From assembly GCF_000170755.1 (NCBI RefSeq), contig NZ_ABCK01000008.1:124001-188000 (forward strand): a DNA stretch of 64,000 nt, given 5' to 3'. Positions within the stretch are counted from its first letter, which is position 1. Every line of letters begins with the position of its first letter. The DNA comes from Lentisphaera araneosa HTCC2155 (GTDB taxonomy: Bacteria > Verrucomicrobiota > Lentisphaeria > Lentisphaerales > Lentisphaeraceae). Shown here one piece after another: positions 49,096 through 64,000 of this stretch. The translations under genes and the position numbers were made by a program. Below the pieces are notes generated by a model that did not search any database, had not been told where the DNA came from, and saw only the letters and a program-made list of their open reading frames with translations.

Positions 49096-49180
49096 AGACT
49101 TAGTTTAGAAAGAAAAGACATTTTTCCAAGGTTGAACTATGGTGGAAAGACAAAAACTGCCAATAATTAGAGGTCTTTCG

Positions 49181-50050
49181 ATGAAGTTAATCGCCATGCT
49201 CATGATCACCATATTTAGTTTTACGGTAATATCTGCCGATTCAGAATATAAATATGGACCCGATTCATCTCGACAAGAAGGAGTGCCACAAGGCAAAATT
49301 CACGACTTCGTTTTTAGTACGAGCAAGATTTACCCCAATACAATTAGAAGGTATTCGGTATACGTTCCAGAACAATACAAGGGTGAAGCCACCGCCTTGA
49401 TGGTTTTTCAGGACGGACATGCATTTTTGAAAGAGAAAGGGCATTTTAGAACGCCGACTGTTTTAGATAACCTCATTCATCAAAAACGCATTCCTGTGAT
49501 GATCGCAATTTTTATAGACCCAGCTTATCTAGGCAGCGAGTTACCTAAAAATCGAGGATGGCGGCCAAAACCAGAAAATCGCAGTGTGGAATACGATAGT
49601 CTCGGAGATAAATATGCCCGTTTCCTAATAGAGGAAATTATACCCGAAATAAGTAAGACTTATAAGCTCACTGAGGATCCCGAGAAAAGAGCCCTTGCGG
49701 GACTAAGCTCTGGCGGGATATGTGCATGGACAGCTGCGTGGGAACGACCCGATTACTTTCGTAAAATTTTGAGCTGTATCGGTAGTTTCACTAATATTCG
49801 CGGTGGTCATGTATATCCAGCGATGATTCGCTCTAATCCAGCTAAGCCCATTCGCGTCTTTCTACAGGGAGGTGCCCGTGATTTAGATAATCAATTTGGA
49901 AATTGGCCTCTTGCGAATCAACAAATGGCAAAATCTTTAGCCTTTGCTAAGTACGATTATAAATTCGTGTTTGGAAATGGGGGCCATAGTGGATTACACG
50001 GAGGGACTATTTTACCTGAGGCTATGGAATGGCTGTGGCGAAAAGAATAA
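49181..50050 (+). CDS. Secreted esterase D/enterochelin-esterase-like hydrolase
   Basis: Encodes 289 residues from the ATG at 49181; upstream in-frame starts lack an RBS and would displace the signal peptide (MKLIAMLMITIFSFTVIS). The alpha/beta hydrolase fold of the putative esterase family (PF00756-like) is visible: YSVYVPEQYKGE, VFQDGHAFL, nucleophile GLSSGGICAW, and C-terminal GNGGHSG containing the catalytic His. Likely an acetyl- or feruloyl-esterase on carbohydrate. Divergent from the DUF4105 gene. Confidence 0.87.
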   Translation: MKLIAMLMITIFSFTVISADSEYKYGPDSSRQEGVPQGKIHDFVFSTSKIYPNTIRRYSVYVPEQYKGEATALMVFQDGHAFLKEKGHFRTPTVLDNLIHQKRIPVMIAIFIDPAYLGSELPKNRGWRPKPENRSVEYDSLGDKYARFLIEEIIPEISKTYKLTEDPEKRALAGLSSGGICAWTAAWERPDYFRKILSCIGSFTNIRGGHVYPAMIRSNPAKPIRVFLQGGARDLDNQFGNWPLANQQMAKSLAFAKYDYKFVFGNGGHSGLHGGTILPEAMEWLWRKE

Positions 50051-50150
50051 TTTGCCTTGAATTTAAGAATATTTTGTGATTAGCTGTTACTATTGGGGAT
50101 CGGCGGTCATAAATAGTTTAAGCACTTTAACTACACAGGACATATAAGAT

Positions 50151-51599
50151 ATGAAAATTTATTTAGCTTTATTTTTCTTTTCACTTTCACTTTTTGCAGG
50201 CGATTTGCGTTTAGCTTCGCTCTTTCAAGACAATATGGTGGTGCAAAGAGATCAAGAATTTGTAATTTGGGGCGAAGCTCCAGCTAATAAAAAAGTTGAC
50301 GTGCAGGTAGCTGGGCAAAATGCCTCTGTAAAGGTTTCAGAATTGGGTAAATGGATGATTAAGCTTCCCGCATTAAAAGCGAGTAGCGCTTTTGAAATTA
50401 AAGTGACTGCGGGGTCTGAGAAAAAACTGATTAAAAATGCGGTTCTTGGTGAAGTTTGGATTTGCTCTGGGCAATCGAATATGCAGATGGGCTGGGGCGG
50501 CATTCCCGAAATCAAGAAGATGGCGGTGAATGCGAAAAATATTCGCACTTTTAAAGTTAATAATACGGTTTCATACCAAGAGGAAGATTATTGCCAGGGT
50601 TCTTGGGTCGAAGCTGCACCAGGTAGTGCTGTAGCAGCGGCTTTTGCCGTGAATCTTCAAAAATCTATTATTTGCCCAATAGGTATTATTCAGGCTTCTT
50701 GGGGCAGCTCATCAGTTGAAGGTTGGATGCCAATGGATATGGCAGAGAAATTGCCTCACTTTAAAAAAGAGCTCGAAGATTGCCGTGCGAATGACAAAGA
50801 TAAGGTTGCGGAGATTTTAGCAAAGAAAAAAATGTCTGGCAAAGACAATATCTTTCTGAGAACACGTCCAAACTTATTATACAATGCGATGATGCACCCT
50901 TTGATCCCTTATTCACTCAGAGGAGTCGTTTGGTATCAGGGCGAGGCAAATACGAAGAGCGTCGAGGCGATGTTGCAATATGGCCAAACTCTTCCCATGT
51001 GGTTTCAGCGTTACCGTCAAGAGTGGGACAATGAAAATCTTCAGTTAATGGCTGTGATGCTTCCTGGGTTTGGTCGTAACTTTACCAAAGGGACGACAAT
51101 AGAATCACCTGATGCGCAAACGTGGGCTTTGATGCGTGAATCGCAAATGAAAGTTTTAGAACTCGACCACACTTCAGTGGCAACGACAATTGATTTAGGT
51201 GATGTGAAGAATATTCACCCTAAGGATAAAGCTCCCATTGGCGAACGCTTGGCATTGTTGGCGCGTCGCGATGTCTTAAAAGAAAATATTGTGGCTGAAG
51301 GCCCGGTGTTTAAATCGCAGCAAGTGAACGGTTCAAAAATTGAACTGAGTTTTGATAACTCTAAGGGGATGAAAGCTAAAGATGGCGAAGCTATTAAAGC
51401 ATTTTGGATTTGCGATGATAGCAAAAGTTGGAAGTTAGCTAAGGCTGAAATTGTTGGAGAGAAAGTCGTTCTCAGTAACGCTGAAGTGAAGAAACCCCTC
51501 TATGTTCGCTATGCTTATGCAGCAATGCCAGCAGTGAATTTAGTGAATGAAGCAGACTTGCCTGCACGTCCCTTTAGAACAGACTCTTTCACTCCCTAA
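50151..51599 (+). CDS. Secreted sialate O-acetylesterase-like SGNH hydrolase
   Basis: Encodes 482 residues with a signal peptide (1-17). The SASA/DUF303 domain is clear: GEVWICSGQSNMQMG (nucleophile Ser and oxyanion residues), VVWYQGEANT, and a catalytic Asp/His-type region near VATTIDLGDVKNIHPKDK. It removes O-acetyl groups from sialic acids or, more likely here, from plant or algal polysaccharides. An AGGA lies 11 bases before the ATG. It follows another secreted esterase by 100 bases. Confidence 0.92.
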   Translation: MKIYLALFFFSLSLFAGDLRLASLFQDNMVVQRDQEFVIWGEAPANKKVDVQVAGQNASVKVSELGKWMIKLPALKASSAFEIKVTAGSEKKLIKNAVLGEVWICSGQSNMQMGWGGIPEIKKMAVNAKNIRTFKVNNTVSYQEEDYCQGSWVEAAPGSAVAAAFAVNLQKSIICPIGIIQASWGSSSVEGWMPMDMAEKLPHFKKELEDCRANDKDKVAEILAKKKMSGKDNIFLRTRPNLLYNAMMHPLIPYSLRGVVWYQGEANTKSVEAMLQYGQTLPMWFQRYRQEWDNENLQLMAVMLPGFGRNFTKGTTIESPDAQTWALMRESQMKVLELDHTSVATTIDLGDVKNIHPKDKAPIGERLALLARRDVLKENIVAEGPVFKSQQVNGSKIELSFDNSKGMKAKDGEAIKAFWICDDSKSWKLAKAEIVGEKVVLSNAEVKKPLYVRYAYAAMPAVNLVNEADLPARPFRTDSFTP

Positions 51600-52211: not shown

Positions 52212-53789
52212 CTATAGACCTAATTCGTAAAGCTTGAGGATCTCTTCCTCGCTTAGAATTTGGTTAAATATAGCTATTTCATCTAGGCTACCATCCCAGT
52301 GGCCAGGTACTTTGCGATCAAAACCATGATCTTGATCCGAAATTTTGGTTCCGATACCCAATGATTTTAATTTACCTTGGGTGTTGAGGCCGTTGACTTG
52401 TTCAGAAGCCATGAGTTTCCCGTTTCTGTAGAGGCGGACTTCAGAGCCCGTGTGAACAAAGGCGACATGTTGCCAGGAACCAGTAGGGAATTTGTCTTTT
52501 TCTTTTATATGAATTTTCTGACCATCTTTATCCATGACTTCGACATCGAGAAAACCAGTTTGATTAAGGCCAAAATGGAATTGCCCCCATTCTCGCATGC
52601 CCCAGTTTTTGACGATTGTCGCCCAACTAGGTCGACTTTTTGCGTAAACCCATGCAGATACAGTAATTTCTCCTAATGGGCTCTTTGGATAGTCAGGGAC
52701 ATAAAGAAAGCCTTTATGGTTAGCTCCCGAGAGGTGTAAAGCATTACCAGATTTCCCTCGAACGAGTAAGTTGTTTTTATGAGCAATTCGATTGGCCGAG
52801 GCATCGTTTTTATAAGTTGACCAATCGCTAAGAGTTGAGCCATCTTTACTCATTTCCATAGGGAAGTAGGCCACAGGGCCTAGTTGAGATATGTACTTTG
52901 AATAATCATTGTCGGGTTCCTGAAGATTGCGAATGAAAAAATCATTTTTTAAATCTATATCATTGATGGAAATGTTTTGAACAACTTGTCTTTCATCTTT
53001 TTCGAAGATGATACGAACAGCTTCTTGAGCTTTTAATTCTCTTGATCTCTCTTCTTGAGTGGCCGTTAACCTAACATCAATTAAGCCTTTATAGACATGG
53101 GTTTCAACAAACTCATTTTCTACAACCCAAACAGAGAACTCAGTGCCCAAGTCGACGACGTCAGCGACAGCAGTACGAATAGTAAAGTTTTTGGCTTCTG
53201 GAGGCACAAAAGCTGAGATTTTTCCCTGAGAGCAGGTGATCAATAAATCAGAATCAAGAGAGAAATGGGCGGGAGCTTCAATGATAGCTTGAGCGCCATT
53301 TTGGTAGTTGAGTTGGATTATGCCCTGCTCAAGAGTGTAGAGTCCTTGAGCGACTTGTTCGCCAACCTTGGGTTGTTGACCATTTTGGTTACCATAAGTA
53401 AATTGACTGCCAATGCTTCTATCTAATTTAGCTAGGATAGTACCTCGGTATGGGGCCTGACTAAGGGTCTCAGCTTCAATTTGAGGAACTTGGCTTTGGC
53501 TTTGAATGAGAGTGAAAACAAAGAGGGAGATTGCCGCGAGGCTCGTGGCCCAAAGCAAGTATCGAAAAGCGCCTTTGTTGGATTGTGATTTTGGAAGGTC
53601 AGTATTTTGTGGTAATTCGAAGTTTTGATGATAATCCTTGAGTAAAGCATGGGTTTCACAGAGCTCATAATAAACTTGGCGCGCTTGGCTAGAGGATTCA
53701 AGATGCTTTCCGAGTTCTTGTTTTTCTTCACCAGTAATCTCACGATTCAGCATTTGATTACTCAGTTCAATAATCCGCTCCTTATTCAT
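52212..53789 (-). CDS. FecR-like membrane regulator with LamG domain
   Basis: Encodes 525 residues. Order: cytoplasmic N-terminal helical region with the anti-sigma-like NKERIIELSNQMLNREITGEE start (1-73); one membrane segment (about 75-95); FecR domain (about 150-265) with VADVVDLGTEFSVWVV and YKGLIDVRL; LamG/concanavalin-like domain (about 310-525) with VAYFPMEMSKDGS, VSAWVYAKSRP and LDEIAIFNQILSEEE. It probably senses an extracytoplasmic sugar or glycan and controls the sigma factor. It overlaps the sigma gene by 4 bases (ATGA). Confidence 0.92.
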   Translation of the reverse strand: MNKERIIELSNQMLNREITGEEKQELGKHLESSSQARQVYYELCETHALLKDYHQNFELPQNTDLPKSQSNKGAFRYLLWATSLAAISLFVFTLIQSQSQVPQIEAETLSQAPYRGTILAKLDRSIGSQFTYGNQNGQQPKVGEQVAQGLYTLEQGIIQLNYQNGAQAIIEAPAHFSLDSDLLITCSQGKISAFVPPEAKNFTIRTAVADVVDLGTEFSVWVVENEFVETHVYKGLIDVRLTATQEERSRELKAQEAVRIIFEKDERQVVQNISINDIDLKNDFFIRNLQEPDNDYSKYISQLGPVAYFPMEMSKDGSTLSDWSTYKNDASANRIAHKNNLLVRGKSGNALHLSGANHKGFLYVPDYPKSPLGEITVSAWVYAKSRPSWATIVKNWGMREWGQFHFGLNQTGFLDVEVMDKDGQKIHIKEKDKFPTGSWQHVAFVHTGSEVRLYRNGKLMASEQVNGLNTQGKLKSLGIGTKISDQDHGFDRKVPGHWDGSLDEIAIFNQILSEEEILKLYELGL

Positions 53790-54304
53790 GCGGAGTCCTC
53801 ATCTAAGGATTTAACGCATTGCGAGAGGTTGGTTCGAGCACGAAAAAGTGTTTGTCGAATGGTGTTGGCTGAATTCTTGAGCTCTTCGGCAATTTGTACA
53901 ATGCTTGTTCCCAAGCGGTAGCGTTTGGTGATTAATTCTTTCTGACGGTCAGGGAGTTTGGCTATGCACTTTTCTAAACGTGACTTCTTCAATTCATAAT
54001 CTTCTTCACGGTCAGCTTGTTCATGAACCATGAGTGAAATTACTTCATTATTGAAAATGAGTGGGTCGCGCATTTGCTTTTGACGCCAAGCCATGACCTG
54101 AAATGAGGCAATGCGAAATGACCAACTCTTAAAACTCGTACCCAATTCAAATTCATGTGCTTTGCTCCATAGAATGAGATTGGTCTCCTGCAAAATATCA
54201 TTGGCCGCATCAGGATTGGCGACGAGACTGAGGATCAAGCCATAGAGGCGTCCTTGAAAGGAACTCATGAGTTCAACGAATTCGTCTGTGTTGTTTTTGG
54301 GCAT
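53786..54304 (-). CDS. ECF RNA polymerase sigma factor (Rhodopirellula/Verrucomicrobium-type)
   Basis: Encodes 172 residues. Sigma region 2 is around ILQETNLILWSKAHEF and SFRIASFQVMAWRQK; region 4 is LPDRQKELITKRYRLGTSIVQIAEELKNSANTIRQTLFRARTNL, a helix-turn-helix of extracytoplasmic-function sigma factors. The pattern fits the PVC-specific sub-group that pairs with FecR/LamG proteins; the partner follows with a 4-base overlap. Its promoter would lie in the 107-base spacer behind the cytochrome gene, which also holds heptad repeats and two hairpins. Confidence 0.93.
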   Translation of the reverse strand: MPKNNTDEFVELMSSFQGRLYGLILSLVANPDAANDILQETNLILWSKAHEFELGTSFKSWSFRIASFQVMAWRQKQMRDPLIFNNEVISLMVHEQADREEDYELKKSRLEKCIAKLPDRQKELITKRYRLGTSIVQIAEELKNSANTIRQTLFRARTNLSQCVKSLDEDSA

Positions 54305-54311
54305 AAGTTAA

Positions 54312-54403
54312 AGTCTTTAGTTGGCAGTAGTCAGTTTTTTATGGGAGTTTGCCAAGCTAGTGCTTGCCGTTCCCAGTTTGTGATTGCGCAGCAGTGGCTG
54401 CGC
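54312..54403. repeat. AGTNNNN heptads and two hairpins between cytochrome and sigma genes
   Basis: Four 7-bp units starting AGT (AGTCTTT, AGTTGGC, AGTAGTC, AGTTTTT) lie at 54312-54339. A short hairpin CAAGC-TAGT-GCTTG is at 54353-54366 and a stronger one GCGCAGC-AGTG-GCTGCGC at 54386-54403, directly past the stop of the large cytochrome gene. No T-run follows, so termination is uncertain. Confidence 0.7.
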
Positions 54404-54411
54404 GGTACGAA

Positions 54412-57400
54412 TTATTTTAGTGTATTGATGTACTCAAAGATAGCCTCAAATTGCTTAGCTGCATCATTGTTATAGTCGGGGAGGGGAGATTTACCTTTTT
54501 CATCCGCATATTTTGGCATCTTGGTGTTGGGTACAATATGAGCGGGGTTGAGCATCCAACGCATATAGAAGTCCTTGCCAAGTCGATCGGCAGTGTACTT
54601 CAGGTTCACACCTTTAACTTCGAAAGCCGCAATAGCTTTTTCCTTGCCAATGTCATGGCAAATAATACAGCCAAAACCAGAGGTGCCGACCAATTTTTTG
54701 CCCACGGCAATTATGTTTTTGTCAGCATTCAGTGAATCTTTTTTGCCCTGTTGAGCATGCTGATAAGCCAAACTCTTGGCCATCATTTCAGCTCTTGCTG
54801 GGAAACTCGGCATGCGGGCCAGTAACCATTCACGACTATCATAATCTAGTGAGCCATCGAGGTATTTCTTAATCGTACCTTCTTTGATCTTTTCACCAAC
54901 AAAAGTGAGTTGAGGGCGACTTTGATCTAAATGGCCCTTGTCTTTGTAGTGGGTTTTTAAGTCCTTGATCTCATTGGCGTACTTCTGCCATTTAGCTGAA
55001 GCATTATCGCGGCTGTGACAGGCATTGCAATTGAGGGTCTTGAACTGACGCTCCGCAAATTCACTTGGGGAGTGATTTTTGAGTGAATGGGCTTTTTGAG
55101 CAAAGACTTTTCTTATGGGTTCCATTTCTTTTCGAGAAATACCAAAATTGATTTTGGGTTTTCTGGATAAACATCCTTTTTGTTGACCCTTGATTTGCTC
55201 AAAGGGAATAGTGCTTAGCATGCTGGATTCCTTGCCTCCGTGACAATCAATACAGCCACGTTCTCTAAAGAGTTTGTGGCCGACTTTTGCATCGGCTTTA
55301 AATTCGGCCATTTTGGGGCCCTTAGCACGTTTAAGCAGGAAGCTCGCAAGATCGATCGCTTCATCATCTGATAAGCTAAAGTTGGGCATCTTGGTCCATT
55401 TGTAGAGCTTCTCAGGTGACATGAGAAATTCTTTGAGTGCTTGGGGTTTAAATTTATTAGCTACATTGCTGAGGAGAAGGCGTTCCCCCTTTTGATTTTT
55501 TTCCTCTGGGCGAGTGTGACAGGAAATACAACCTAGATCGTAAAAGAGCTCAGACCCGCGTTTACTATTGCCAGTTAAAGCCGCTGATTTGTCTGCTTGT
55601 ATATCACTAGCAAGAAATTCTGCAATATTTTTGGCTTCCTGTTTATTCAAGACGACTTTGGGCATGTGCGCATGCTTGTTGAGGTTTTTTGGGTTGGCAA
55701 TCCACTCTGCCATCCAACTTTTGTGAAGACGTCCACCCGCATTCTCGAGTGAGGGGGAATCCATTTGAGCGAGCTCGGGCATGAGTTCTTTTGATTCGCT
55801 TTTGTGGCAGGAAATACAGCGAGCTTCGGCAATCATCATACGACCTTTGCGGTGACTTTGGAATTCATCGCTCGTAGCTCCTGTGCTATAGCGCAAATTA
55901 TTTGGGCTTATGGGTTCTAGGGGGAATTTACTGCCTTGCCATTTGAGATTGAAGTAAGACTTCTTTGCCGTATCGGACTTAAAACTCAAGCGCAAATCAT
56001 GGGCACCGGGATCGAGTTCAATCATTGAAGATTTGATCAGCTCGCCATTCTTATTTTCGTCAAAAATGACTTTGCCATTGAGTTCAAAACGCAAAGCTCC
56101 CGTGAGCTCAGTTTGAAAGTGAACTTTTTCTTTTTCAGTGACGATGAGGTGGCCATTATAAATTGCTGTGAAAGCACCGCTCATTAGGAAGGGGCTTGGG
56201 AGCTCATCTTTTTTGAGCTGAATATTGAGTAAGCGAGCGACTTTGTTATCGTATTCCCAGACGTGTTTCCCTTTCATCTCAACAGTTATGCCTACAGGAT
56301 AATTATTGATTTTATCTTGGAGTTCCATTTCTTTGACTGATACCATGTCGGGAACTTGGGAGTCGTCGGGGGAGAGATTATAAATGGTGTTGATTATCTC
56401 CGAATTGAGATCCTTTCCCTTAGCCGTTTTGAGTTGATAGACCACTTTCATATTATCGACGGGCTTCATATCGTGCAACTTGAGAAAAACAGTCTTGCCA
56501 TCGCGCATGAGTTTAAGTGCAGTGACGTAAACTTTTTCACCTTCCTGATTACGGCTGAATCCAATGCGTCCAACGCGCTTACTCTCAGTTGTTTTGAATT
56601 TATCGAGTTCTTCTTGAGGCGTATTTGTCGCAAAGTGACCAGAACCATATTGCTCTGAATAAACATAGTTCCATCTTTGAACGGAGAAGTTATTAACATT
56701 CTTTAAGGTTTCGGGGTCGAGCATTTCATTAAAAGTCAAATAAAGGCCTTGAGTTGTGGCTTTGACTTCCAAAGGACGGATCATTTTATTGCCCTTGTAA
56801 CGTACACGATTAATGGCGCTCATGCGGCTGGCGTTTGTTTGCCAACCCTTGAAGCCAGTGATAATTGCTGAGTCAGTATTTTTCGGATTAAAGCGTATGC
56901 GCATGCCAGAAGACATGAGGCGAATGGGAAGGGCGACGACTCCGCCTTGAACTTGGCCATTGACTTTTTCTTGGAAAGTTGTGTAGGCTTTACTTTGACC
57001 ATAGGAGAGATGAATAAGTTTGCCACCGAGGTCGCCCCAAGAGTTCTTTGGAACCCAAATTTGTGAACCCCCAGAGTTATCTCTATTCATCGGGATAAAG
57101 CAAAGAGGTTTTTTGTAGCCTTCAGACTCTTTTTTGCCATTTCCGGGGTGAATCACCCCCGCAAAATCGCCTTTCTCGAGATAATTGATTTTGCAGGCCG
57201 GTACATAAGTTCCTTCGTTCTCACCTGTGGTCGCAATCGTGCCTTCGGCATTAATCGACATGCCACCCGGGGCGCGTAGGCCACTTGCAAAGATTTCGGA
57301 GTGTTGTCCATCTTTGCTGACTTTAAAAATAACCCCATGATTATCGTGAGTCTTATCGAAGCCACGACCACCCTGCAGAACGGGAGCAGCTTTGGCTACA

Positions 57401-58587
57401 TAAAAATTGCCGGCGGCATCGGTATGGAGATCAAAAGTGAATTCGTGAAAATTTTTGGTGATTTTGCAATCGTTATTGAAGTTCTCGTAGAAGTCGGCTT
57501 CACCATCGTTATTAAAATCGTGGAGGCGGGTGATTTGGTCCTTGCCACTGACGTAAATCACGTCATCGACAATGCGTAGCCCTAAAGTTTCATTCATGCC
57601 CGCGGCATAGCGTTTCCATACGATGTTTTTGAGGTCTTTGTCAAGATTGGAAGCAATCCACACATCGCCATTCCAAGTACAGAAAGCAGCGCGTGAGCCA
57701 TCTGAAAAATAATCAAAGCCACCAAATTTCATGACCGAGCCCCAGGGATTCCTTTCAGGGATGGGGATCTGATCAACTGCAAAGATGTCGGATTCGAAGT
57801 CATTCAATTTCCCTTGGGCCTTTACGGTTTGAGGCCAGCGAGTTTTTCCACCCTGAGTTAAAGCTTTTAAATCCATCGCAGCTAGCGAAGGAGCTGGAGA
57901 GCCTTTTTTGTATGAGATGGCGAATTTTAAGTTTTTAGAACCAGCAGGGATGCGGATGAATTGAATAGCTCCCTCTTTTTCCAGCTTCATTGAAGTAGTA
58001 TTGAGCTGAAGGCTGGGCTCAGGGCTATCCAGTACTTTGAGCAGAAGCTCTTCTTTGGCGACCGCAATATTGAAGTGACGCACAAAAGCCCCGTCTTTCA
58101 TTGCAGGCATTTCTAAGATGGCGCTTTTCTGATCGCCAACTGTGTAGGAAAAGACCACCTGCTCATTGTGACGATATGTACCTAGGAATTTCACATAGTG
58201 ATGGGGTAGTGGAGCGTAGTCAAAGTCACGAGGGTCATTCCATGAACTCTTATAAGCCCATGCTAAACTAGGGGCTGAATTAAGCAAGACTTCACTTTTA
58301 ATATTTGAGTTGCCACCATGGGAACCATTCCAAGGAGTTCCGTTAAAGTTGATCCTACCTTTGGCAACAAAACGCAAGTTCATACTGCCCGAATCGTAGT
58401 AAGCTGAGTATTGGTCTTTACCTTGCCCCATTAACACGGACTTACCGCGCAGGATTGTGTCATCTCCGAGACTGACAACTTGTGATGAGACTTGGCTGAA
58501 GTCGTAGGATTCGTACCATTGTTTCGCTTGTGCGGAAATCGCACAAAGCCCAAGTCCTAGAGCTAACTTTGATGCTCGCTTCAGCAT
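54412..58587 (-). CDS. Giant secreted beta-propeller/PA14/multiheme c-type cytochrome protein
   Basis: Encodes 1391 residues with a signal peptide (1-22). The first 200 residues contain beta-rich domains; about 280-600 look like a six-bladed propeller (FDYFSDGSRAAFCTWNGDVWI, ITRLHDFNNDGEADFYENF, LRAPGGMSINAEG) as in sorbosone-dehydrogenase-like domains; about 790-900 is PA14-like. The C-terminal 480 residues carry five CXXCH heme c motifs (CISCH about 924, CISCH about 1022, CIDCH about 1115, CNACH about 1190, CIICH about 1309). Such proteins are PVC-specific and probably oxidise sugars outside the cytoplasm. One base after DUF1080. Confidence 0.92.
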   Translation of the reverse strand: MLKRASKLALGLGLCAISAQAKQWYESYDFSQVSSQVVSLGDDTILRGKSVLMGQGKDQYSAYYDSGSMNLRFVAKGRINFNGTPWNGSHGGNSNIKSEVLLNSAPSLAWAYKSSWNDPRDFDYAPLPHHYVKFLGTYRHNEQVVFSYTVGDQKSAILEMPAMKDGAFVRHFNIAVAKEELLLKVLDSPEPSLQLNTTSMKLEKEGAIQFIRIPAGSKNLKFAISYKKGSPAPSLAAMDLKALTQGGKTRWPQTVKAQGKLNDFESDIFAVDQIPIPERNPWGSVMKFGGFDYFSDGSRAAFCTWNGDVWIASNLDKDLKNIVWKRYAAGMNETLGLRIVDDVIYVSGKDQITRLHDFNNDGEADFYENFNNDCKITKNFHEFTFDLHTDAAGNFYVAKAAPVLQGGRGFDKTHDNHGVIFKVSKDGQHSEIFASGLRAPGGMSINAEGTIATTGENEGTYVPACKINYLEKGDFAGVIHPGNGKKESEGYKKPLCFIPMNRDNSGGSQIWVPKNSWGDLGGKLIHLSYGQSKAYTTFQEKVNGQVQGGVVALPIRLMSSGMRIRFNPKNTDSAIITGFKGWQTNASRMSAINRVRYKGNKMIRPLEVKATTQGLYLTFNEMLDPETLKNVNNFSVQRWNYVYSEQYGSGHFATNTPQEELDKFKTTESKRVGRIGFSRNQEGEKVYVTALKLMRDGKTVFLKLHDMKPVDNMKVVYQLKTAKGKDLNSEIINTIYNLSPDDSQVPDMVSVKEMELQDKINNYPVGITVEMKGKHVWEYDNKVARLLNIQLKKDELPSPFLMSGAFTAIYNGHLIVTEKEKVHFQTELTGALRFELNGKVIFDENKNGELIKSSMIELDPGAHDLRLSFKSDTAKKSYFNLKWQGSKFPLEPISPNNLRYSTGATSDEFQSHRKGRMMIAEARCISCHKSESKELMPELAQMDSPSLENAGGRLHKSWMAEWIANPKNLNKHAHMPKVVLNKQEAKNIAEFLASDIQADKSAALTGNSKRGSELFYDLGCISCHTRPEEKNQKGERLLLSNVANKFKPQALKEFLMSPEKLYKWTKMPNFSLSDDEAIDLASFLLKRAKGPKMAEFKADAKVGHKLFRERGCIDCHGGKESSMLSTIPFEQIKGQQKGCLSRKPKINFGISRKEMEPIRKVFAQKAHSLKNHSPSEFAERQFKTLNCNACHSRDNASAKWQKYANEIKDLKTHYKDKGHLDQSRPQLTFVGEKIKEGTIKKYLDGSLDYDSREWLLARMPSFPARAEMMAKSLAYQHAQQGKKDSLNADKNIIAVGKKLVGTSGFGCIICHDIGKEKAIAAFEVKGVNLKYTADRLGKDFYMRWMLNPAHIVPNTKMPKYADEKGKSPLPDYNNDAAKQFEAIFEYINTLK

Positions 58588-58588
58588 A

Positions 58589-59290
58589 TTATTTTAACTC
58601 CAAAACTTTAAGGTTTTTGAACCAAACCACATCGTTGTGGTCCTGTAGTCCTAAGTGTCCCTTTTTGTTCATGCCAAAACCTTTCCAGTTTTTAAATTTG
58701 CTTTTACCCACGAGTTCTTTCCATTCATCGGAGTGCATGACGATGTCCACAGTTTGAATTCCGTTCTGCCATACTTGTAGGTGACTCTTGTTGAGTAAGA
58801 TTCTAACTTGGTTCCACTCACCGGCTTTTTTGTGCGATTCAGCAGGAGAAGTAATCATATCGTAGAGCGAACCTGAGCGGTGATTCGGTTTTTTACGATC
58901 GTTATGTTTTTCATTGTCGAGAATCTGAATTTCCGGTGCATGAGAATAAATGCGCTTGCCCTTTTCGTCGGCGAGGATAAAAATGCCGCTATTGCCCGCT
59001 TCAGAAATTTTCCACTCCATACGGAAATCAAAATTTTCATACTGCTTTTTAGTCATGATGTCGCCACCACCGCCACCCGAGAGCTTCATAGTGCCTCCTT
59101 CAACGACCCATTTTGGATTAATATCTTGTTTTTTGAAATTTCTCCACTGGCTCATATCCTGACCATTGAAGAGAAGTTGCCAACCTTCTTTAGCCTCGGC
59201 TTTTGACAAACTATTATCTGGGATCGGTGTACTTGTACAGGAAGTGATAAGTGCAGTTGTAGCAATTGAAAGGAAAGCGAGGAATTTCAT
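58589..59290 (-). CDS. DUF1080 (3-keto-disaccharide hydrolase) lipoprotein
   Basis: Encodes 233 residues. A lipoprotein signal ends at the lipobox ITSC (Cys18). The DUF1080 lectin-like jelly-roll follows: WQLLFNGQDMSQWRNF, FDFRMEWKISEAGNSGIF, HAPEIQILDNEKH, HRSGSLYDM and GHLGLQDHNDVVWFKNLKV. Some members hydrolyse 3-keto-glycosides made by oxidation of sugars. It starts the transcript whose next gene, one base on, is the five-heme propeller protein, which could generate such keto-sugars; this coupling is inference. RBS GGAG 6 bases before ATG. Confidence 0.92.
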   Translation of the reverse strand: MKFLAFLSIATTALITSCTSTPIPDNSLSKAEAKEGWQLLFNGQDMSQWRNFKKQDINPKWVVEGGTMKLSGGGGGDIMTKKQYENFDFRMEWKISEAGNSGIFILADEKGKRIYSHAPEIQILDNEKHNDRKKPNHRSGSLYDMITSPAESHKKAGEWNQVRILLNKSHLQVWQNGIQTVDIVMHSDEWKELVGKSKFKNWKGFGMNKKGHLGLQDHNDVVWFKNLKVLELK

Positions 59291-59544
59291 GTGGTACTCC
59301 GTGTATTTTTATTTAGTTGCCCTCGTATATAAGCGGAAATCGCAAACGTTACGGTGAATCTTTAAAATAATAAAATTTTTTTGGAGCTAATGCGAGCTTT
59401 TGCGATCTTCGCAAGTGAAAAAGTGGTGAAATAAATAATAAAAACTCACTGCTTCATTAGTTTGTGTTGCTATTAAGTTATATTAGTTTTTGTCACTTTT
59501 ATAATTTTTTTTCGTATTCATTGTAAAACAATTAAAGGATGACC

Positions 59545-60387
59545 ATGAAATATTTCTTAATCGCTATCTTATCTATTTCTCTTTTTGCTCAGAAAGACCT
59601 TAAAGATATTACCTTTGCTATTACAGTTGAAAAAAAATTAGAAATGGACATCTATTTTCCTAAGGGCAAGCAGGAAAATAGACCTATGCTGATGTGGATT
59701 CACGGTGGAGGCTGGAAAGGCGGTAGCAAGAAGGATTGTAAGTTACAGTGGCTCACGGAGTATGGTTATGTGGTTGCAAGTGTTTCTTATCGTTTTTCCC
59801 AAGAAGCTAAGTTCCCTGCGCAAATTCACGATTGTAAAGCAGCACTAAGGTTTTTGAAAGCAAATGCCGTAAAATATGGCTTGGATAAAAAACGTTTTGC
59901 AGTTGGCGGATCAAGTGCTGGCGGACAGTTGGCGGCTTTGATGGCTACCTCTTCAGGAGATGATTTTTTAGATGGAGAACTTGGAGATTATAGTGAGGAA
60001 AATACACAAGTATCAGCAGTTATAGATTTTTATGGAGCTAGCGATTTTCTTTTACGTGAAAAGAATCAACCTGAAAAGGTTAATAAAAAGGGAGGGGTAG
60101 TTTACGAGCTTTTAGGTGGAAACATTCAAGATAAAAAAGATCTCGCCAAGAAGGCGTCAGCGGCATATCAGGTAGATCATAAAGATTCACCTATTTTGAT
60201 CATTCATGGATCTAAAGATCGGGTTGTTCTTCCTGGGCAATCCAAGCGGCTTCATGAGGTCTACCAAAGTAAAGGTCTAAATTCACAATTACATATTTTA
60301 GAAGGGGCTAGTCATGGTGGAAAAGCTTTTGGGGATGAGGAGGTGAAAAAAAATATTTTGAAATTTCTAAAGGCAAATGGTGTTTGA
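59545..60387 (+). CDS. Secreted alpha/beta hydrolase (HSL/BD-FAE-type esterase)
   Basis: Encodes 280 residues. I take ATG 59545 (AAAGG about 7 bases upstream); the ATG two codons earlier is too close to the RBS. Signal peptide 1-16. The HGGGWKGGS oxyanion motif, the GGSSAGGQLAAL nucleophile and HGSKDRV/ASHGG with Asp and His fit carbohydrate acetyl- or feruloyl-esterases. It stands alone on the plus strand between minus-strand PVC genes, with 248 AT-rich upstream bases shared with DUF1080. A 6-bp hairpin TTGCGA-TCT-TCGCAA at 59400-59414 in that spacer might be an operator; nothing else stands out. Confidence 0.9.
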   Translation: MKYFLIAILSISLFAQKDLKDITFAITVEKKLEMDIYFPKGKQENRPMLMWIHGGGWKGGSKKDCKLQWLTEYGYVVASVSYRFSQEAKFPAQIHDCKAALRFLKANAVKYGLDKKRFAVGGSSAGGQLAALMATSSGDDFLDGELGDYSEENTQVSAVIDFYGASDFLLREKNQPEKVNKKGGVVYELLGGNIQDKKDLAKKASAAYQVDHKDSPILIIHGSKDRVVLPGQSKRLHEVYQSKGLNSQLHILEGASHGGKAFGDEEVKKNILKFLKANGV

Positions 60388-60810: not shown

Positions 60811-61329
60811 TTATGGACGCTGGGGTTCAATGCCCTCTGGTTTTACGTCTTCAATCTTTTTCTTTTTACCACCATTATCTTCACGTTTACCTTTTTTCTT
60901 TTCCATGAAGGCTTTTTTATCTTCGTCGCTCATGTTTTCCATTTTAGCTTGCATTTCAGCACGTTTTTTCTTCATTTGCTCAAAGAAAGCCTTCTTTTCT
61001 TCTTCACTCATGCCTTCGAGTTGTTTTTTGATTTCTTCTTTTCCTTTACCATTCATGCCGCCTTTGCCACCGCGTTTTTTACGTTGCTCTTTAATGAAGG
61101 CTTCTTTCTCTTCGTCACTCATGCCTTTCATTTTTTCTTGCATTTCGGCACGACGTTGTTTCATTTTTTCTTTGAAGGCCGCCTTTTCTTCGTCACTCAT
61201 GTTCTGCATGCGTTTTTCCATTGCGGCTTTGCGATCACCGCCTTTATTACCTTTGCGTTCTTTTTTTTCTTCGGCAAACATGCTGTGGGCTAAAAAGAGA
61301 GATAATGTGATAATAAATAATTTTTTCAT
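60811..61329 (-). CDS. Exported Lys/Glu-rich protein with four MS(D/E)EEKxAF repeats
   Basis: Encodes 172 residues from ATG 61329 (GGAAC 8 bases upstream); upstream in-frame codons precede the signal peptide and are rejected. Signal peptide KKLFIITLSLFLAHSMFA. The mature chain is highly charged and helical, built from four repeats starting MSDEEKAAF, MSDEEKEAF, MSEEEKKAF and MSDEDKKAF. Start-to-start spacings are 26, 37 and 26 residues; the longer one carries a Gly/Lys-rich insert. It ends in KPEGIEPQRP. Not recognised; resembles Spy/CpxP-like or other helical periplasmic proteins only in composition. Confidence 0.8.
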   Translation of the reverse strand: MKKLFIITLSLFLAHSMFAEEKKERKGNKGGDRKAAMEKRMQNMSDEEKAAFKEKMKQRRAEMQEKMKGMSDEEKEAFIKEQRKKRGGKGGMNGKGKEEIKKQLEGMSEEEKKAFFEQMKKKRAEMQAKMENMSDEDKKAFMEKKKGKREDNGGKKKKIEDVKPEGIEPQRP

Positions 61330-61413
61330 TTTTTGAGTTCCTTTTTTGAGTCTGTAAAAGCTATATCGCAGTAAAGATGAATGATCTTTCACCAAATATA
61401 AAAAAACGTTTAT

Positions 61414-62754
61414 TTATAATAGAATATCTTTGGCCACATCGCCATAGACATCGGTAGGGCGGAAGTCACGACCAGCGTATTTATAGGTTAAATTTTCATG
61501 GTTTAAGCCAAGGATATGCAGAATGGTCGCGTGCCAATCGTGGATAGAGAGTCGGCCTGCTACAGCTTCGTAGCCAAATTCATCTGTGGCGCCATAGCGG
61601 AAGCCACCTTTGACTCCGGCACCAGCCATCCAAGTCGTGAATCCTTTGGGGTTGTGGTCGCGTCCATCCATGTTAGGTGACTCAGGTGTACGCCCAAATT
61701 CAGTACACCAAACCACGAGGGTGTCTTTTAAAAGTCCTCTTTGCTTTAAATCAGCGAGTAAACCTGCAATAGGCTTGTCGATTTCGCTACAACGTGCCGT
61801 GAGGTCATTTTTCAGGTTCGAGTGATGATCCCAGCCACCATGGCCAAGCTCGATATAACGTGCACCCGCTTCAGCAAAGCGTCTAGCAAGGAGGCATTGG
61901 CGTCCCACTTTTGAAGTGAGGTCATTATCCACTCCATAAAGAGCCAGTGTTTTTTTCGATTCTTTACTGATGTCTAAGATTGCGGGCATGGAGCTTTGCA
62001 TACGGAAAGCCATTTCATAGGAGTCTTGAACCGCATTGATTTCAGGACTGTGTTTATCTTTTTGGAGCTTGCGTTTATTGAGGGCTGAAATAAAATCGAG
62101 TTGGGAGCTTTGAAGTTTTGTGGAGAATTCTTCATTTTTGATATTTGGGAATGAAGCAGGGTCTCCAGAGGCACGATTCCCACGAATAGATCCTCCGACG
62201 GCGGTTCCTTGGTATTTAGAAGGAAGGAAAGCACTACTAAAATGGGCACCAGCACCTGAATTGGGGTTGAGTGTAATAAACCCAGGGATTGATTTATTCT
62301 CACTTCCCAAACCATACATGACCCACGCACCGAGTGAAGGGCGAGCGAACTGCACATTGCCCGTGTGGATTTTAGTCTGTGCTTGGGGGTGATTGGGTTG
62401 GTCAGTTGAATGACCATGAAGTAGGCAGAGCTCATCAGCTTGCTGACCAAGGTTAGGGAAAAGAGTCGAGAGCGGTAAACCGCTTTTTCCGTAGCGTTTA
62501 AATTCCTTGATCGGGGGCATGAGCTTACGGCCGTATTTACCGCGCTTTTCAGCGTTTTTAATGAGGCTAGGTTTGTAGTCAAAGGTGTCGACGTGAGAGG
62601 TCGCGCCACCCATGTTAATGACAATGACACGTTTGGCTCTAGGAGTAAAATGAGGTTTTTGTGGGCTTTGTGAACTAGAAAATGCATTTATATTAAGCCC
62701 AGTGAGGGCAGCTGTTGAACCTAAGTTTAAAAATTGTCTACGATTAAAATTCAT
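61414..62754 (-). CDS. DUF1501 protein with Tat-like signal
   Basis: Encodes 446 residues. The N-terminus NFNRRQFLNLGSTAALTG is a twin-arginine-type signal. The DUF1501 (sulfatase/alkaline phosphatase-like) fold follows: VIVINMGGATSHVDTFDYKP, CLLHGHSTDQPNHPQAQTKI, ELGHGGWDHHSNL and VVWCTEFGRTPESPNMDGRDHNPKGF. The family is found next to DUF1553 proteins in PVC bacteria; function is unknown but metal ligands (Asp, His) are retained. It starts 9 bases after the DUF1553 stop with the RBS TAGGAG overlapping that stop codon. Confidence 0.93.
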   Translation of the reverse strand: MNFNRRQFLNLGSTAALTGLNINAFSSSQSPQKPHFTPRAKRVIVINMGGATSHVDTFDYKPSLIKNAEKRGKYGRKLMPPIKEFKRYGKSGLPLSTLFPNLGQQADELCLLHGHSTDQPNHPQAQTKIHTGNVQFARPSLGAWVMYGLGSENKSIPGFITLNPNSGAGAHFSSAFLPSKYQGTAVGGSIRGNRASGDPASFPNIKNEEFSTKLQSSQLDFISALNKRKLQKDKHSPEINAVQDSYEMAFRMQSSMPAILDISKESKKTLALYGVDNDLTSKVGRQCLLARRFAEAGARYIELGHGGWDHHSNLKNDLTARCSEIDKPIAGLLADLKQRGLLKDTLVVWCTEFGRTPESPNMDGRDHNPKGFTTWMAGAGVKGGFRYGATDEFGYEAVAGRLSIHDWHATILHILGLNHENLTYKYAGRDFRPTDVYGDVAKDILL

Positions 62755-62763
62755 ATGGATCTC

Positions 62764-64000
62764 CTAGTTGAGGTAGCGGAATTCGGAACTAGCAAAAAGT
62801 GCTTGGACGATAGCGGCTAAAGATTGAGTTTTTCTATCGTTTGAGTTTTTCTGACGCATTTCAGAACTTTGATAAAATTTTTGATAGAGTTGACGAGCTC
62901 CAATGAGTTCACCTGAGTCTGGGCTTCTGCCAAGACAAATAATAAAAGCAGTTTTGATTTGCTTGTCGAGTTCGGAGCTGTGATTTATGAGCCTCTCTGC
63001 AGTTAGTTGGCTACTATTGATCACGAAGTCATTGTTCAACATATAGAGCGCCTGGGCAGCATTGTTGTTGACTTCGCGTTGGCTCGTAGTTGTCATCGAC
63101 TCGGGAAAATCAAAAGTTTTTAAAAGGTCGGGCAGGAAGTCGCGAACAACGGGGAGGTAAACTGAGCGATAAGGGGCGCCGATATCAATGTTTAATTGAT
63201 TGGCTCGACCAATGGTGGTTTGGCCTTTTTCGGCTAATTGAGAACCTGTGGGTTGTGAGACACTGATTTTTCCTGATATTTGAAGGATTGCATCTCTAAA
63301 GGACTCAGCTTCAATTCGTCGTTTATCCATTCTCCAAAACTGTTTGTTATCGGGATCGAGTTTGAAGTTATCTGAATTAAATTCTGAATTACTGCGATAA
63401 GATCTGCTAAGGACGATACTCTTAATAATACTTTTGACTGACCAATTATTGGTCATGAATTTAAGGGCTAAATAATCCAATAATTGCTGGTTAGTGGGTG
63501 CCGATCCAGTAGTTCCAAAATCATCGGGGCTCCTAACGATGGCCTGACCCATGAGTTTCATCCAGATGCGGTTTACCATCACTCGAGCTGTGAGAGGGTT
63601 TTCCTTTGAAGTAATCCAATCGGCGAGTTCTAAACGACCATTGGAGTTTTGGTTTATGGTGATATCGAAAGGTCCAAGGACTTGCACTAAGCCACGCTTA
63701 ATTTCTTGTCCTGGACGGTGAACTTCGCCTCGTTCGAGTAATTTAGCATTCGTTAAAGTACTTGGTTGAACGCCCATGCAATAAGCTACGGCTTGCCCAG
63801 AGCTATCGACGGAATTGATTTTTTCTTGAAGGGCAAAATACTTGTTTTGGGAACGAGCAATGTCTCGTTGAATTTGATTGGCGTCGACATTTTGCATATT
63901 TCGCGAATTCCGACGAGCCATACGGGCTTTCTGCATATCGTCCTCAGCATTTTTTAACTGAGACTTAAGTTGACTGAGTTCGTTTGGGCTCATAGGTGAG
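62764..64000 (-). CDS. DUF1553 (PSD1) protein, C-terminal part
   Basis: The frame is open to the right edge, so the N-terminus (often signal peptide, cytochrome-like PSCyt1 and DUF1549 domains) lies outside. Visible: a coiled-coil (first about 50 residues), AYCMGV region, then DUF1553 with ELADWITSKENPLTARVMVNRIWMKLMGQAIVRSPDDFG, NWSVKSIIKSIVLSRSYR and RRIEAESFRDAIL, ending in YLN. DUF1553 proteins are paired with DUF1501 in Planctomycetes, Verrucomicrobia and Lentisphaerae. It is the gene just upstream of DUF1501 in the same operon. Partial, not broken. Confidence 0.93.
   Translation of the reverse strand, partial: SPMSPNELSQLKSQLKNAEDDMQKARMARRNSRNMQNVDANQIQRDIARSQNKYFALQEKINSVDSSGQAVAYCMGVQPSTLTNAKLLERGEVHRPGQEIKRGLVQVLGPFDITINQNSNGRLELADWITSKENPLTARVMVNRIWMKLMGQAIVRSPDDFGTTGSAPTNQQLLDYLALKFMTNNWSVKSIIKSIVLSRSYRSNSEFNSDNFKLDPDNKQFWRMDKRRIEAESFRDAILQISGKISVSQPTGSQLAEKGQTTIGRANQLNIDIGAPYRSVYLPVVRDFLPDLLKTFDFPESMTTTSQREVNNNAAQALYMLNNDFVINSSQLTAERLINHSSELDKQIKTAFIICLGRSPDSGELIGARQLYQKFYQSSEMRQKNSNDRKTQSLAAIVQALFASSEFRYLN

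Follow-up and report, generated by a model that had tools for sequence, protein, structure and literature searches.

A five-heme propeller protein next to a DUF1080 lipoprotein in Lentisphaera araneosa: a possible oxidise-then-cut route of glycan breakdown

Does a secreted multiheme protein oxidise the glycan that the product of the adjacent gene then cleaves? The question is raised by two genes on the minus strand of a 64,000-nt stretch of Lentisphaera araneosa HTCC2155 DNA (contig NZ_ABCK01000008.1, positions 124,001 to 188,000), hereafter the window, in which all coordinates are given unless a locus is named. The upstream gene (58589..59290) encodes a 233-residue lipoprotein of the DUF1080, or 3-keto-disaccharide hydrolase, family (PF06439), and the downstream one (54412..58587), a 1391-residue secreted protein, here called the large protein, with a DUF6797 domain, a propeller, a PA14 domain and five heme motifs. 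Genomes of the Planctomycetes–Verrucomicrobia–Chlamydiae (PVC) superphylum may hold dozens of heme-propeller and DUF1080 genes, whose functions are almost unassigned; a linked pair combining oxidation and hydrolysis would explain both families and tie the degradation of marine glycans directly to respiration.

We propose that the two genes may specify a single unit that couples glycan cleavage to redox chemistry. Once secreted, the large protein would dock on a glycan via its PA14 domain, and perhaps via DUF6797; its six-bladed propeller would oxidise a glycoside hydroxyl, the C3 position being suggested by the DUF1080 partner; electrons would flow through five c-type hemes to an acceptor in the periplasm or outside the cell; and the DUF1080 lipoprotein would then cleave the 3-keto-glycoside. 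For this full scheme, C3 oxidation followed by cleavage, we estimate a probability of about 0.5.

Architecture of the gene pair

The stop codon of the DUF1080 gene (TAA, 58591–58589) and the start codon of the large gene (ATG, 58587) are separated by a single base, and a likely Shine–Dalgarno sequence of the latter, GGAG (58598..58601), is located 10 nt before the ATG, within the 3' end of the DUF1080 gene. Judging by this junction, the two genes are likely to be co-transcribed and translationally coupled. A scan for promoters and terminators in the 53500–59800 region yielded fewer matches than shuffled sequence, and is therefore uninformative on transcript ends.

The DUF1080 protein has a predicted lipobox, LITSC18, and is an ordinary member of its family: it matches PF06439 with E 8.9e-50 and 169.8 bits (cut-off 26.8), has 14 relatives with solved structures (the best being 4jqt, E 1.9e-50), and retains the conserved E, Q, Q, H residues (E120, Q122, Q216 and H218), which are kept in paired, in most fused and in nearly all propeller-linked copies. 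Compared to other 3-keto-disaccharide hydrolases, it is the partner oxidoreductase that differs here. BT2157 is cited in PMC9007349 as a 3-ketotrehalose hydrolase.

The large protein starts with a predicted signal peptide (residues 1–21, MLKRASKLALGLGLCAISAQA; 58525..58587), the predicted cleavage site falling between SAQA and K. The DUF6797 domain (residues 63–154; 58126..58401) scores 48.2 bits with PF20601, the cut-off being 24.9, and is matched in all 51 of 51 relatives. For the PA14 domain (residues 765–908; 55864..56295) the Pfam score of the single sequence is below the cut-off (14.2 bits), but both the profile comparison (A3 against the RsgI3 PA14 domain, 6qe7; E 2.2e-18) and the predicted fold (Z 18.6 to 6qdi and 14.6 to trehalose-bound 6xa5) clearly identify it as a putative carbohydrate-binding domain.

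The C-terminal part has a Pfam Cytochrom_C match of 73.8 bits and contains the motifs CISCH at residues 924–928 (55804..55818; candidate distal ligand Met975), CISCH at 1020–1024 (55516..55530; Met1067), CIDCH at 1112–1116 (55240..55254), CNACH at 1187–1191 (55015..55029; Met1259) and CIICH at 1307–1311 (54655..54669; Met1357), so that a conserved Met accompanies four of the five motifs, the third being the exception. Since each motif is kept in 43–47 of 47 relatives, their occurrence is not due to chance; motif 2 is the one absent from four 4-heme relatives. Lying in cytochrome c folds and having predicted distal ligands, the motifs qualify the large protein, by its sequence, as a c-type cytochrome. 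Cys1139, following motif 3, is conserved in 46 of the 47 relatives and is a candidate for His/Cys axial ligation.

The first-pass annotation of this DNA, made from the letters alone, had described two genes one base apart, the smaller one encoding DUF1080 and the larger one, a protein with a signal peptide, a PA14-like domain and five CXXCH motifs; all these features are borne out, while the N-terminal DUF6797 domain had been overlooked.

Two AlphaFold models of the large protein, built from alignments of relatives (residues 20–760, predicted local distance difference test score 93; residues 765–1391, score 92), together with VIA, hhalign and conservation, delineate a six-bladed propeller at residues about 266–600 (56788..57792). 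The top three Foldseek matches of the propeller model are all sugar dehydrogenases of the pyrroloquinoline quinone (PQQ) type, and 2ism (Z 18.8) and 3a9g (Z 18.6) are among the top rows obtained with VIA. At the sequence level, no Pfam match to PF07995 (GSDH) is found in the large protein. Profile comparison is more telling: an hhalign search with a profile of 88 propellers against the PF07995 set gives E 2e-10 across 303 columns, compared to 3e-6 across 64 columns for the lactonase (SGL) set and about 0.4–0.9 for column-shuffled decoys. An initial hhalign run with a narrow propeller alignment had given a probability of 8%, which rose to 97% with single-heme relatives added. A search of PDB sequences with the propeller profile retrieved no convincing enzyme, the only match being to an S100-like calcium loop (DxNxDGEADxxE).

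Six propeller residues are invariant among relatives (H381, G406, R438, N457, G459 and R563), and four more are nearly so (E382, R408, E458 and R565). In the PF07995 alignment, GLRAPGG is placed opposite GHRNPQG, and, with an uncertain register, GENEG (N457-E458-G459) is aligned with the EHGP loop that binds calcium, R408 and R563 coincide with or adjoin the PQQ-binding Arg positions, and H381/E382 are at most one residue from the catalytic His; the ligand and catalytic roles in PQQ sugar dehydrogenases are taken from PMC6881789 and PMC6881810. By predicted fold and profile comparison, the PQQ sugar dehydrogenases are the closest relatives of this propeller, whose putative counterpart of their pocket has conserved polar residues, and we consider it rather probable that it is a sugar dehydrogenase. 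The sugar-dehydrogenase-like propeller of the first-pass annotation is hence retained, backed by these two lines of comparison and not by a Pfam match.

Recurrence of the DUF1080 link

Eighty relatives of the large protein were retrieved from Verrucomicrobiota, Planctomycetota and Lentisphaerota, and its architecture is maintained across the PVC superphylum. In most relatives two adjacent genes encode the DUF6797-propeller and PA14-heme parts, in the window a single one; as both forms occur, what stays constant is the propeller/pentaheme unit. The source genome comprises 6.0 Mb in 81 contigs, and its order, Lentisphaerales, is represented in our collection by six genomes. DUF1080 is encoded directly upstream of the orthologues in G004, G005 and G003 (76, 72 and 58% identity, respectively), and directly downstream in G001, a metagenome-assembled genome of the family (locus L107, 37% identity). 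These DUF1080-adjacent orthologues span three genera, with the gene order flipped in one.

DUF1080 forms an N-terminal fusion with the DUF6797-propeller part in nine of the 80 relatives (the tested fusions being confirmed with Pfam), is encoded by an adjacent gene in two, and lies about 2 kb downstream in six, all of them Opitutae. On the tree of relatives, the presence and absence of DUF1080 require at least nine state changes. The Opitutae cluster (L121:9809-19280, L130, L174, L179, L180 and L181) consists of propeller, pentaheme, Gfo/Idh/MocA and tandem double-DUF1080 genes; where examined, Gfo/Idh is located between the pentaheme pair and DUF1080, and in L121 a sulfatase gene follows.

Family searches identified 25 DUF1080 genes and 44 PVC-type propeller genes in the source genome. 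Thirteen of the 25 are fused to a propeller gene or lie within 3.5 kb of one on the same strand (two of the thirteen share one propeller gene), while random placement yields 0.76 such links on average and at most 7 in 20,000 trials, that is, a 17-fold excess. In three loci (L205, L206 and L207) DUF1080, a monoheme cytochrome c and a propeller are encoded by three consecutive genes. As these triplets reduce the unit to DUF1080, a monoheme cytochrome c and a propeller, the propeller is likely the oxidising part.

Chance adjacency of DUF1080 and propellers is ruled out by the linkage seen in relatives and by the random-placement test. The linkage, which widens the proposal from a single gene pair to an association across the genome, is real yet facultative, and it is highly probable that DUF1080 proteins and heme propellers are functionally coupled. 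With orthologues in three genera and nine fusions, the pairing recurs across genomes, an observation that the earlier annotation had named as support for its reading; its conservation in relatives is partial, holding for the four orthologues and the fusions but, in the available sequence, not for the majority of the family. The triplets and the single-chain fusions also provide short, testable constructs. A further protein of the source genome (L073:4711-7194, 827 residues), encoded beside a monoheme cytochrome, unites a propeller and DUF1080 with C-terminal EF-hands, a region whose match to lanmodulin scores 31 bits and so stays below the threshold of 135.

Oxidant, cofactor and order of steps

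The LacABC lactose 3-dehydrogenase includes a c-type cytochrome, and its LacA is a GMC flavoprotein. Caulobacter needs both LacABC and a DUF1080 protein for the use of lactose, as shown by mutant fitness (Price et al., 2022, PMC9007349). Periplasmic oxidation of a sugar followed by the action of a DUF1080 3-keto-glycoside hydrolase, with adjoining genes, is what the two systems would have in common, whereas the oxidoreductase is of the GMC type there and a DUF6797/propeller/PA14/pentaheme protein here. No GMC (LacA-type, PF05199) oxidoreductases were found in the six genomes of the order, while the same search was positive in Caulobacter; a LacABC-type GMC dehydrogenase encoded elsewhere in the genome is thereby ruled out as the true partner. 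The source genome has 17 Gfo/Idh genes, and only two of the 25 DUF1080 genes have a Gfo/Idh neighbor. Given both observations, the propeller with its cytochrome would be the most economical candidate for the oxidant that makes the keto-sugar substrate of DUF1080.

Three other systems bear resemblance to the large protein. The AA12 PQQ pyranose dehydrogenases (CcPDH and TrAA12; PMC6881789, PMC6881810) also have a six-bladed propeller, on which that of the large protein superposes with Z 15.5 (VIA, 6i1q), and in CcPDH a propeller, a sugar-binding module and a heme domain are likewise joined in one secreted protein. However, AA12 enzymes are fungal and PQQ-dependent, carry a b-type heme AA8 domain and CBM1, oxidise C1 and have no hydrolase partner, while the large protein has five c hemes and PA14, and genomes carrying it lack PQQ synthesis. 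The TIGR02604 PVC-type heme-binding proteins similarly combine a propeller and a c-type heme, and all 51 of 51 relatives match this family at E ≤ 0.1; with 18.5–19.9 bits, far below the cut-off of 122.2, the large protein is a relative and not a member, and the examined members have one heme, compared to five plus DUF6797 and PA14 here. Finally, PSCyt cytochromes near sulfatases (He et al., 2017, PMC5615132) occur in the same phyla and in a glycan context, with a proposed role in carbohydrate metabolism, but belong to the PSCyt/PSD domain families, and DUF1080 is not mentioned in that study.

Several observations weigh against a propeller dehydrogenase that acts at C3 ahead of DUF1080. NHL and SMP30 propellers also reach Z 16–18 with that of the large protein (VIA), therefore the propeller fold by itself is not decisive; structure prediction, one of the checks named in the first-pass annotation, yields a six-bladed propeller nearest to PQQ sugar dehydrogenases but does not set it apart from these folds. 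With single sequences, Pfam favors SGL (12 of 51 relatives) over GSDH (2 of 51, best E 0.0014), and Lys377 of sGDH has no evident counterpart in the profile alignment, although it is absent from AA12 too. PqqC is missing from every one of the 21 genomes of the phylum Verrucomicrobiota that encode the large protein (defined at E ≤ 1e-100). As to the pairing, 63 of the 80 relatives have no linked DUF1080 in the available sequence, which partly consists of short contigs, and a 64%-identical paralogue in the source genome (L065:5350-9540) has no DUF1080 neighbor. Lastly, the known chemistry of GSDH and AA12 enzymes is oxidation at C1 (PMC6881810) and not at C3, hence the steps could run in the opposite order.

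PqqC was taken alone as the marker of PQQ synthesis because its search found six true positives, all from one family other than the carriers, among 388 Verrucomicrobiota-phylum genomes. Matches to PqqE were discarded as sub-cut-off radical-SAM hits, seen in all 14 controls as well. Escherichia coli scavenges PQQ for its own apoenzymes, and the cofactor of the propeller may be scavenged PQQ, something else, or none.

These points feed three other explanations. One, in our estimate rather unlikely, casts the propeller itself as an enzyme that cleaves glycosides or resembles lactonases, or as a glycan-binding platform with no catalytic role, the hemes serving unrelated electron transfer. It would fit the lack of PQQ synthesis in the carriers, the lactonase family matches of the relatives and a report that purified Lac161_ORF7 from Verrucomicrobium (TIGR02604, HEAT and cytochrome c) frees glucose from lactose (PMC5342196). 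However, the latter protein was purified from IPTG (isopropyl β-D-thiogalactopyranoside)-induced BL21(DE3)pLysS, where LacZ contamination is possible, the Km values of the two enzymes being similar, and the lactose result should not be used until a contribution of the host enzyme has been excluded. Moreover, profile comparison prefers GSDH to SGL, and the c-type cytochromes with which propellers are often paired speak for a redox function.

Under the reversed order, which we regard as unlikely, a Gfo/Idh/MocA oxidoreductase would make the 3-keto-glycoside, DUF1080 would cleave it, and the heme propeller would oxidise the freed sugar at C1, a step that would draw the pathway onward and supply respiration with electrons. 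Oxidation of aldoses at C1 by GSDH and AA12 enzymes, the gene order of the six Opitutae (the five-heme pair, then Gfo/Idh, then tandem DUF1080 at about 2 kb) and the 17 Gfo/Idh genes of the source genome agree with it. On the other hand, propellers are found near 13 of the 25 DUF1080 genes compared to two for Gfo/Idh, and the DUF1080/cytochrome/propeller triplets include no third oxidoreductase. A mere clustering of genes for glycan degradation, in which the large protein and DUF1080 would act on different bonds or substrates, would suit the surrounding esterase, DUF1501 and PSCyt genes and the many unlinked relatives, but is very improbable in view of the recurrent fusions, the flipped adjacency and the 17-fold enrichment.

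Oxidation by the propeller followed by cleavage by DUF1080, as the first-pass annotation had it, is strengthened by the recurrent pairing, the fusions, the triplets and the nearest fold, and is weakened by the missing PqqC and by a pairing that is not obligatory. The claim that no such pair has been described needs qualification: given the precedents of LacABC with DUF1080 and of Lac161_ORF7, the general idea is only partly new, while the type of oxidoreductase differs. A wider suggestion, which we make tentatively and with some doubt, is that a broad class of secreted PVC propeller-cytochromes could be glycoside 3-dehydrogenases that use an unrecognised or scavenged cofactor in place of PQQ of their own, each physically tied to a DUF1080 3-keto-glycosidase. 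If true, it would provide a function for many hitherto unexplained proteins annotated as "PVC-type heme-binding", and polysaccharides would be broken down by a respiration-linked route in which oxidation precedes the cut.

Neighboring genes

An extracytoplasmic function (ECF)-type sigma factor of 172 residues (53786..54304, minus strand; Sigma70_r2 and r4_2) is encoded 107 bp downstream of the large gene on the same strand, and its gene is overlapped by that of a 525-residue membrane LamG protein (52212..53789, minus strand; Laminin_G_3, E 2.5e-25), which also has a sub-threshold match to PF06439. This order behind the large gene is kept in two congeners (L076 and L077). The sigma factor, on which our proposal does not depend, is a possible regulator of the pair, and the LamG protein, FecR-like by eye, may be a sensor or anti-sigma factor.

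Carbohydrate-esterase-like genes (PF00756, SASA, BD-FAE) are located on either side of the pair, at 49139–51599 and 59539–60387, which is consistent with a glycan-degradation neighborhood. Farther along, at 61414–63993, a DUF1501 gene stands beside that of a PSCyt1/PSCyt2/PSD1 diheme protein, a common planctomycete-type pair, the latter gene extending beyond the window end, and the 60811–61395 segment encodes a secreted 194-residue protein made of imperfect MSDEEKxAF/MxxKKKRAEMQ repeats.

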